Shown piece after piece: positions 2,555 through 8,611 of a stretch of DNA of 40,434 nucleotides. The first letter of the stretch is position 1. Every line of letters starts with the position of its first letter. A model generated the notes under the pieces. The model searched no databases. It saw only the letters and a list, made by a program, of their open reading frames with translations, and had not been told where the DNA came from. Source of the DNA: Bacillota bacterium. GTDB taxonomy: Bacteria > Bacillota > Negativicutes > CTSoil-072. The translations under genes and the position numbers were made by a program. The DNA lies in NCBI GenBank assembly GCA_017889545.1, contig JAGFZV010000026.1:1-40434 (forward strand), written 5' to 3'.

Positions 2555-3556
2555 CTACTTATTCATAATTTTACCAATATTTTTCAGCTCAATCGAAAGC
2601 GTTCCGTCCGGATTATTGACAAACTCCATGTACTCCTTGTTTTCAAAATAATCTACCGGAAAGGTGATTTCAATTCCCGTATCCGTTTTGATTTTATGAT
2701 TTTTCCCTTTTTTCACGCAAAAGTCCCGATCCATCTTTACCACTTCAGAAATTCCTGATTTTTTCACTTCTTCCACATACTCTTGCTGCATGATTGGCGA
2801 AGAACGAAAGACTGTCTTCCCTAACTCCACAGGATCAAGAAATTCTGATGTTTCCATATGTTCCACCATATAATTTTTTGCTTTAGAAATCGCGGCCACG
2901 CTGCTTTGTCCATGGTTTTCGGCGATTTTGCGGGTAATCGCTTTTACCAACTTAATCGTGCTATTCGGGGAAACGGCGGAACTGCATTCTAAAATTTTTT
3001 CCGGCAGCACATATGTCTCTTGACCATTGATAAGATGCTTCTTATCAATAAATTTGATGTCAAACGAGTCCGCCCCGATAAATGCATATTCATCAATCTT
3101 CTGCGAAAGATTAGGCAAAATAGCATAATGATTAATAATTTCATTTTTGATTTTTTCTGCCGTTTTTATGACTTGATGGGTAAATCCAACCCGATTATTG
3201 CATTTTAAGATCCCAATAAACCGGTTGTCATCTATCGTAAAATCACAAACAAGCAAATCGGAAGAATCTAACACCTCTGCCTGGGAAATAGCGGAATGCA
3301 TTGTTTGAGCAATCATTCCGGAAAAATTAATAAAATCCAGTTTGCCATCAATGTAGTCCGCCAGTTGCTTCTTGAATTTGCTATCGGATTGAAATGCGCC
3401 AGATTTTGAGTTCTGATCATGATACGATTTTTCAATATGCTTGATTAAAAACGTAATCACACTGTCATTTTTTATTTCTAATTCCTGTTCAGAAAAAACT
3501 GTCATTCCAGAGTTTAAATCGAGTATATGCAAAATTGCTTTATTTATTATAATCAA
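2555..3556 (-). CDS. Nucleoid-associated protein, NdpA/YejK (NA37) family
   Basis: 333 residues resembling the NA37/YejK nucleoid-associated family: N-terminal MIIINKAILHILDLNSG, a conserved centre with DLLVCDFTIDDNRFIGILKC, and a C-terminal half with IKLVKAITRKIAENHG and EYVEEVKKSG. Family members bind DNA and are thought to be nucleoid associated; little is known of their function in Bacillota. The start is a TTG at 3556, with GGTGA about 7 nt upstream; an ATG at 3560 is out of frame. The gene is visibly richer in A+T than its neighbours, stands alone between a strong hairpin and thiM, and has no functional link to either side. A laterally acquired cargo gene is possible but unproved. Confidence 0.75.
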   Translation of the reverse strand: MIIINKAILHILDLNSGMTVFSEQELEIKNDSVITFLIKHIEKSYHDQNSKSGAFQSDSKFKKQLADYIDGKLDFINFSGMIAQTMHSAISQAEVLDSSDLLVCDFTIDDNRFIGILKCNNRVGFTHQVIKTAEKIKNEIINHYAILPNLSQKIDEYAFIGADSFDIKFIDKKHLINGQETYVLPEKILECSSAVSPNSTIKLVKAITRKIAENHGQSSVAAISKAKNYMVEHMETSEFLDPVELGKTVFRSSPIMQQEYVEEVKKSGISEVVKMDRDFCVKKGKNHKIKTDTGIEITFPVDYFENKEYMEFVNNPDGTLSIELKNIGKIMNK

Positions 3557-6991: not shown

Positions 6992-7981
6992 TTATTTTTT
7001 CAGTCCCGTTCCGGTAAGCGGCACAACGATTTTTCCAAATGGTCCTTTGCGTATCGAAAAATAGTTGCGCATCCCTGCAACAGCCACACTTGCCGTTGGT
7101 TCCACATAAATCCCGCGACCGGCTAATAAACTCCAAGCGTCCTGAACTTCTTCATCCGTTACAGTAATAATGTCGCCGCCGCTATTTCGGATCGCTTCGA
7201 CCATTTCATCGATACGCGCCGGGCATTGCACCGCAATTCCTTCGGCAATCGTTCCAGAAACCGCCATAGTTTCGAGTCCGTGATAGCGGGTATAAACAGG
7301 AGAACAAGCGGCACTTTGCACTGCAATCAATCTTGGCAATCGACCTAATTCAAGAAACCCATAATATACCCCCAGCAGCATAGTCCCGTTTCCAGCCGGA
7401 ACAACTACGTAGTCCGGAATTCCGATATCGGCTTCAATTTCAGCAGCAATTGACTTTGTCCCTTCAAAAAACAGTGGGTTATATACGTGAGAAGCGTAGT
7501 AAACTTGTTCTGCAGCTCTTTGAACGGCGAGTGCCGTGTCGTCCCGCGACCCCGGCACTCGTATCAAGTCAGATTGATACGCGCTGATCTGTTTTGTTTT
7601 TCCTGGCGAAGTACTTTCCGGCACGTATATGTGACAGCGGATCCCCGCCGCCGCACAATAACCGGCAATCGAAGCCCCTGCGTTACCCGAAGAATCTTCA
7701 ACAACTTCCTTGATGCCGATTGCTTTCAATTGACTGATCAATACCCGGGCGCCGCGATCCTTAAACGATCCGGTGGGCGCCATATAATCCAACTTAAGAT
7801 GAACATCAATCTCATCAATCGCAGACACAATGATCGGCGTTTTCACTTCACCAAGAGATATTAGATCGGCAATTTTGTCTCCCGGTTCTTTTGCCAATTG
7901 AAATAAACCGTTACAGTCACACTTATACTGCAGCCCGTTCAAAGGATACGTTCTGCCGCATTGTTTGCAACGAAATTGCAT
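6992..7981 (-). CDS. PLP-dependent threonine-synthase-like enzyme with N-terminal zinc ribbon
   Basis: 329-residue fold-type II PLP enzyme. It begins with a small Cys ribbon (C5, C8, C21, C23: CKQCG...YKCDC), as in many threonine synthases. The PLP lysine is K74 in GSFKDRGA, a glycine/asparagine loop follows in SSGNAGAS, and VVPAGNGTMLLGVY binds the phosphate. Threonine synthase converts O-phosphohomoserine to threonine, but cysteate synthase and other paralogues share this layout, so the reaction is not settled. At about 330 residues it is shorter than classical ThrC, and no hom or thrB gene is near. The open frame extends to 8056, but the ATG at 7981 follows GGAGG by 8 nt and starts the ribbon, so it is chosen. 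Confidence 0.8.
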   Translation of the reverse strand: MQFRCKQCGRTYPLNGLQYKCDCNGLFQLAKEPGDKIADLISLGEVKTPIIVSAIDEIDVHLKLDYMAPTGSFKDRGARVLISQLKAIGIKEVVEDSSGNAGASIAGYCAAAGIRCHIYVPESTSPGKTKQISAYQSDLIRVPGSRDDTALAVQRAAEQVYYASHVYNPLFFEGTKSIAAEIEADIGIPDYVVVPAGNGTMLLGVYYGFLELGRLPRLIAVQSAACSPVYTRYHGLETMAVSGTIAEGIAVQCPARIDEMVEAIRNSGGDIITVTDEEVQDAWSLLAGRGIYVEPTASVAVAGMRNYFSIRKGPFGKIVVPLTGTGLKK

Positions 7982-8074: not shown

Positions 8075-8116
8075 TGTGATCATTATCACAGAAAATAACG
8101 TAATATCAGTTATAAT
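8075..8116 (+). promoter_or_regulatory. CRP/FNR-type palindrome and -10 box upstream of the cupin gene
   Basis: A perfect dyad TGTGATCATTATCACA (8075-8090) fits the TGTGA-N6-TCACA consensus of CRP/FNR-family regulators. A perfect -10 hexamer TATAAT lies at 8111-8116, but no good -35 is present at 16-18 nt. With transcription starting near 8123, the dyad centre (8082.5) is about 40-41 nt upstream, the position of class II activator sites. The cupin gene is the plus-strand target; the divergent PLP enzyme could also be affected. Confidence 0.6.
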
Positions 8117-8151
8117 GGAATTAGCAGCAAATATCATTAGGAGGCGATACC

Positions 8152-8487
8152 ATGCAAAAAAAATTGTTCAAGAATATTGATTTCGGTAAAGCGCTGGATT
8201 TGGCAAACCTGGTTGACTACCAGCCGGGAAAAGTGATTAGCTTAACCTTCGTACAAAATGAAACCGTGAGCGTAACGCTTTTTGCTTTTGCGCAAAATGA
8301 AGGAATTAGTACTCACTCTTCTTCCGGCGATGCCATGGTTTATATCTTGGATGGCAAAGCGCAAATCACCATTGGAGAAGAAACACAAGTCGCCGAAAAG
8401 GGACAAGTCATCGTAATGCCGTCAAATGTTCCGCATGGGCTGGAAGCAAACGAAAATTTCAAAATGCTGTTAATTGTTGTGAAATAA
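8152..8487 (+). CDS. Small single-domain cupin protein
   Basis: 111-residue protein forming one conserved-cupin beta-barrel: GISTHSSSGDAMVYILDGKAQITIGEE (motif 1, about 45-75) and KGQVIVMPSNVPHGLEA (motif 2, about 85-100). His in STH, the Asp after it and His in PHG are candidate metal ligands. Small stand-alone cupins may bind small ligands or catalyse unknown reactions, and no substrate can be inferred. The ATG at 8152 follows AGGAGG by 7-8 nt. It is one of only two plus-strand genes, with its own promoter, a CRP/FNR-like operator and a strong terminator, so it is an independently regulated single-gene unit. Confidence 0.9.
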   Translation: MQKKLFKNIDFGKALDLANLVDYQPGKVISLTFVQNETVSVTLFAFAQNEGISTHSSSGDAMVYILDGKAQITIGEETQVAEKGQVIVMPSNVPHGLEANENFKMLLIVVK

Positions 8488-8540
8488 CAGTACAATAGCA
8501 TCTTATCCTTCAGGTTAAATCTGACGGTTCTAAAAGAATA

Positions 8541-8583
8541 GGATATTAAAAACGGCTGAAGCAATCAGCCGTTTTTAATATCC
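8541..8583. terminator. Bidirectional terminator between the cupin and SGNH hydrolase genes
   Basis: Perfect 19-bp inverted repeat (8541-8559 and 8565-8583) with a 5-nt loop. Runs of A and T in both arms give U-rich tails in both directions. It serves the convergent plus-strand cupin and minus-strand hydrolase genes. Confidence 0.9.
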
Positions 8584-8611
8584 TGCAAATCATGAAACGA
8601 ACTTGAACGAT

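Follow-up and report, generated by a model that had tools for sequence, protein, structure and literature searches.

A conserved CRP/FNR-type dyad upstream of a small cupin gene, a probable member of an HcpR-like NO/nitrite regulon in Negativicutes

HcpR-type regulons as the closest described systems

The hybrid cluster protein (Hcp) is an NO reductase. In the excerpts consulted of two papers, the HcpR site of Desulfovibrio is given as wTGTGAnnnnnnTCACAw and an R-E-x-x-x-R pattern in the recognition helix is tied to TGTGA (PMC1274295, PMC5701242), while HcpR1 is described as binding TGTGA-N6-TCACA (PMC5701242). Part of the first paper describes a further regulon, that of HcpR2 with the motif GTAACnnnnGTTAC, from Clostridia, Bacteroides and Thermotogales (PMC1274295). 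In the consulted part of the second, Ddes_1828, a cupin-fold gene beside hcp in D. desulfuricans, was up by 4.4 log2 with NO, and HcpR2 was modelled there as a repressor (PMC5701242). The main text of the Desulfovibrio HcpR paper, in the sections consulted, names no cupin (PMC1274295), and a literature search, mostly open-access and without RegPrecise, retrieved no description of the cupin studied here as a member of an HcpR-type regulon in Firmicutes.

The sequence analysed here, hereafter the window, is a stretch of 40,434 nucleotides from a genome of the Negativicutes, in which a dyad of this kind precedes the gene of a stand-alone cupin (Table 1). We consider it probable, from comparison of sequences, that the activator of an HcpR-like NO/nitrite regulon binds this dyad in class II position, and that the cupin is an under-recognised member of this regulon. 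As in the Desulfovibrio regulon, so far as the excerpts describe it, the same site, an R180/E181-type helix, hcp as a core target and anaerobic hosts are found together, and in Sporomusa ovata the site also stands before ferredoxin and hemerythrin genes. In contrast to Desulfovibrio, the window belongs to another phylum and the site is also coupled to a NirB-like siroheme protein, the likeness being one of site, helix and targets. The cupin family of the window further resembles Ddes_1828, as described in part of its source, in being a small cupin that can adjoin hcp, and Ddes_1828 is induced by NO along with hcp; the two are likened by description, not by sequence.

Operator, promoter and their conservation at cupin loci

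Table 1. Features of the cupin locus, in positions of the window
Feature	Position	Strand	Basis
Operator TGTGATCATTATCACA, TGTGAT-CATT-ATCACA	8075..8090	+	Sequence; conservation at 36/55 cupin loci
-10 element TATAAT	8111..8116	+	20 nt past operator end; spacing 21-22 nt in 32/36 orthologous sites
Ribosome-binding site GGAGGC	8140..8145	+	Read from sequence
Single-domain cupin, 111 aa, putatively regulated gene	8152..8487	+	ORF, ATG at 8152; Pfam Cupin_2 (PF07883), 47 bits; orthologues
Inverted repeat, 20-bp arms	8540..8584	.	Read from sequence
Divergent threonine-synthase-like PLP gene	6992..7981	-	Likelier start 7981

The original prediction described a 16-bp perfect dyad that fits TGTGA-N6-TCACA exactly, followed by a TATAAT -10 element with a poor -35. 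The fit and the -10 element were both recovered at the positions in Table 1, whereas the perfection of the dyad holds for the two 6-bp arms only, as the central CATT is not self-complementary. There is no recognisable -35, since the hexamers 16-18 nt ahead of the -10 read as poor matches to TTGACA, in agreement with the prediction. With a predicted transcription start at about 8123, the dyad centre (8082.5) falls at about -40.5, which is within the claimed 40-41 nt and, from this predicted start, near the -41.5 typical of class II sites. The exact TGTGA-N6-TCACA occurs once in the window, as the operator, and its copies with two mismatches (11) are not above shuffles (mean 16.0), which leaves the exact match as the one distinctive hit.

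A search for the cupin covered 100 genomes (that of the window and others from the same class) and gave some match in 67; upstream stretches were scored for 55 cupin loci from 54 genomes (30, with 25 added), with weaker matches left out. The Negativicutes cupin motif, TGTGAYNNNNRTCACA (TGTGAY-N4-RTCACA), is perfect upstream of 21 of the 55 loci and present with at most one mismatch at 36, the other 19 lacking it at this threshold, whereas 177 control palindromes made of the same letters averaged 0.12 loci at up to one mismatch and never exceeded 4. The best -10 lies 21-22 nt from the operator in 32 of the 36 cupin sites (21 was preferred where candidates tied), and TTGACA is matched at three or fewer of its six positions in 86 of 88 cupin, hcp and nir promoters, a raw count with no control set. 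The dyad thus recurs ahead of orthologous cupins, as the original prediction had demanded of itself, and its interval to the -10 hardly varies; the reading as a class II promoter of the CRP/FNR family is supported, with activation as the presumed mode of action. Judged by this conservation, the operator is real and functional-looking.

Among the copies of the cupin that carry names are those of Pelosinus propionicus, P. fermentans JBW45, Sporomusa ovata, S. acidovorans and Propionispora, all from Negativicutes; their genomes partly overlap the scored ones. The cupin is clustered with nir or hcp in G068, G073, G021, G032 and G036:C42, while in the short stretches examined of G019, G020, G049, G059, G087, G091 and G095 neither a cupin site nor a cluster was found.

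The intergenic region is common to two divergent genes, and so the site might instead control the threonine-synthase-like gene, or be a palindrome arising by chance. We regard this as very improbable: chance is ruled out by the 177 control palindromes, towards the divergent gene no good -10 stands at the corresponding spacing, and the threonine-synthase-like neighbour adjoins the cupin in no other scanned locus, whereas the site stays with the cupin. The site therefore belongs to the cupin, and the operator probably does not serve the divergent gene. Downstream, the cupin converges with a GDSL gene and the inverted repeat between the two is a likely terminator, so that the cupin is probably transcribed on its own.

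Shared targets and the candidate regulator

The 3.27-Mb genome of the window was scanned for TGTGATNNNNATCACA, with the reversed pattern as control, giving 9 places with at most one mismatch versus 1 for the reversed pattern. Only two sites are perfect, one ahead of the cupin and the other ahead of hcp (hydroxylamine reductase/hybrid cluster protein, NF003658), so that the genome-wide search for the 16-bp motif proposed with the original prediction led to the very gene that HcpR-type regulons hold under this site. A one-mismatch site precedes the gene of a 317-aa NirB-like siroheme protein, the C-terminus of which is a hybrid-cluster-protein-associated redox disulfide domain (TIGR03980/DUF1858). 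Among relatives, a TGTGA-type site with no more than one mismatch is present at 24 of 30 hcp loci (one locus, L161, with its N-terminus off the contig, is scored as a miss), and one with no more than two at 28 of 30 loci of the nir-like gene; the spacing from site to -10 is 21-22 nt in 23/24 and 25/28 of these, respectively. The promoter type common to the cupin, hcp and the NirB-like gene suggests that the cupin is a member of an NO/nitrite detoxification regulon.

Gene order is in keeping with these shared promoters. In G068 the regulator is followed by the nir-like gene, a 222-aa protein and the cupin, and then by two hcp genes, with an HPP membrane protein (PF04982) encoded on the opposite strand between the cupin and hcp. 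G021 and G032 have an frdX-like ferredoxin, the cupin and hcp side by side, and in Syntrophomonas zehnderi hcp adjoins the cupin.

Several further observations concern these clusters. The gene of the HPP membrane protein (L170:4969-5529) and hcp point away from each other, and a perfect TGTGA site separates them; relatives of the protein act in nitrite transport. The 222-aa protein (MSAFxGxIHYWLYxKI...), which gave no Pfam or NCBIfam match, is encoded at L202:5394-6062 (G000, the window's genome), L170:6015-6683 (G068) and L194:3227-3907 (G004); its gene follows the NirB-like gene in several genomes, G073 being an exception. At L175 (G036:C90), a broken, shortened nir-like copy is flanked by the regulator on one side and by a second, truncated cupin on the other.

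The strict motif in S. ovata stands ahead of three genes, those of the cupin, a hemerythrin and a ferredoxin, and also lies upstream of hcp, where a small cysteine-rich reading frame adjoins it. The motif's total in that genome is not above the reversed control, so that placement, not number, is the evidence. The S. ovata hcp copy that matches hcp1 by length has no site; to judge from this length, it may be the hcp1 that part of a transcriptome study reports as induced by nitrate (PMC12780646). The main text of that study, in the part consulted, does not name the cupin (PMC12780646). The cysteine-rich frame of S. ovata (L258:12098-12316) sits just behind the TGTGA-type site, and shares CTRLNGxxxCQCGST with another small frame near hcp (L198:4073-4324).

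A looser pattern matched 18 places in the window's genome, versus 10 for the reversed control, and 15 of the 18 were inspected. One-mismatch sites of this genome at L033-L036, L038, L039, L205-L208, L210 and L211 lie inside genes or next to unrelated ones and look like background. At L209 (G000:C22:41467), TGTGAGAATTGTCACA precedes a pair of genes for a ferredoxin and a flavoprotein, which may be a further target judging by the site.

The search for CRP/FNR-family genes, also proposed originally, returned nine proteins above the Pfam cut-off in the window's genome. Only one, the L040 protein (232 aa, G000:C7:59569-60264, PF00027 and PF13545), carries R-E-x-x-x-R in its recognition helix (TTRETVTR), i.e., the Arg180/Glu181/Arg185-type helix of HcpR proteins that read TGTGA. 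The form RET[VL][ST]R is kept in nearly all extracted orthologues (two were missed by the pattern and one was misparsed). The L040 protein contains no cysteine, and hence none of the iron-sulphur cysteines of FNR; its extracted orthologues contain 0-3. A clear orthologue is present in 31 of 36 genomes with the cupin site versus 8 of 18 without it (Fisher p=0.003, from a table counted by hand that takes genomes as independent and ignores ancestry). The site occurs with no clear orthologue in G075, G050, G092 and G046, and with a split orthologue only in G082. In many relatives the orthologous gene has hcp, nir or the cupin as a neighbour; in the window's genome it adjoins hemL, not hcp, so that its link to hcp and the cupin there is drawn from orthology.

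Since the dyad motif is also the consensus of E. coli CRP, and the best PDB matches of the L040 protein are actinobacterial CRP/FNR proteins of the cAMP type (GlxR-like), a cAMP-CRP-like global factor could be envisaged, with the cupin answering to nucleotide or carbon state. However, the cAMP phosphate pocket of CRP is formed by Arg82/Ser83, and the L040 protein and most extracted orthologues have YPATA at this Arg-Ser position. Moreover, two perfect sites in 3.27 Mb are unlike a global regulon, and the targets concern NO, all of which makes this reading quite unlikely.

A similarly low probability is given to Rex, an NADH-sensing repressor that would place the cupin under redox/fermentation control. 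The Rex consensus, TTGTGAA-N4-TTCACAA, has A at position 6 and T at position 11 of the dyad, whereas neither occurs in the 71 unique sites (Y6/R11 preferred, mismatches allowed). The targets are nitrosative genes, and the poor -35 suits an activator better than a repressor. These points outweigh the presence of two Rex-type genes in the window's genome and the identity of Rex and HcpR1 sites in Desulfovibrio, as stated in the consulted part of PMC5701242.

Returning to an HcpR-like activator, we propose that a build-up of nitrite or NO would cause a cAMP-independent CRP/FNR-type regulator to bind the dyad near -41, where it would stand in for the missing -35 and recruit RNA polymerase to TATAAT. 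Both activation, rather than repression, and NO or nitrite as the signal are presumed in this scheme. Among the CRP/FNR proteins of the genome, the one acting here is probably the L040 protein, and the same promoter type would drive hcp and the NirB-like siroheme protein with its Hcp-associated redox-disulfide domain. This amounts to the prediction of an HcpR-like regulon in Negativicutes, in which a common cupin without an assigned function gains a condition (nitrite/NO) and partners (Hcp and the NirB-like siroheme protein).

Operator switch in Clostridia and the cupin protein

A second set of 40 cupin loci (L069-L108), mostly from Clostridia and other phyla (L091 is from Pelosinus), was scored for GTAACNNNNGTTAC, i.e., GTAAC-N4-GTTAC. 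At the corresponding position of the promoter, nine cupins have this motif with no more than one mismatch, five of them perfectly, versus no perfect match and, with one mismatch, a mean of 0.20 and a maximum of 2 for 59 control palindromes. It is the same as the published HcpR2 motif, as given in the consulted part of PMC1274295. The cupin of the window has no GTAAC site, its genome using the TGTGA-type motif instead.

For the hcp genes of those nine genomes, copies were anchored at the CYQC codons and four unanchored copies were left out. The GTAAC motif is perfect at hcp in four genomes (Haloimpatiens, Hathewaya, C. carboxidivorans and the MAG of L077), and no perfect motif was found at the hcp of L074, L076 and L084; of the other two genomes, one has no hcp match and one a best hcp copy that could not be anchored. 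The hcp of G038 has the motif perfectly and its cupin with one mismatch, and the hcp-adjacent regulator there carries the helix RPSLSR, the Pro-181 type of HcpR2. The cupin thus tends to stay with the regulon across a change of operator: the target gene is kept while TGTGA-N6-TCACA gives way to GTAAC-N4-GTTAC, with RETVTR versus RPSLSR in the recognition helix.

This switch, together with hcp, the NirB-like gene and the hemerythrin and ferredoxin genes of S. ovata as targets, narrows the signals originally listed (redox, O2, CO, NO or nucleotide) to a likely NO/nitrite stress. The handle on a functionless gene that the site was said to offer is borne out in that it suggests a candidate role in nitrogen-oxide defence. 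More tentatively, and with somewhat less than even confidence, the cupin may be a core partner in NO/nitrite defence whose HcpR-type control was kept across Negativicutes and Clostridia despite the changed DNA specificity, and which would probably act beside Hcp, e.g., on a nitrosylated metal or thiol, via His55, Asp60 and His95.

The cupin fold is evident from sequence matches to 1yhf and 3rns. In an alignment of 112 cupin rows, no change is seen at His55 or Asp60, and 110 rows retain His95. The classical set of cupin metal ligands is larger, and the three conserved residues make a metal site with fewer ligands possible. Elsewhere in the window, positions 2555-3556 of the minus strand hold the gene of a 37-kD nucleoid-associated protein (NA37, PF04245).
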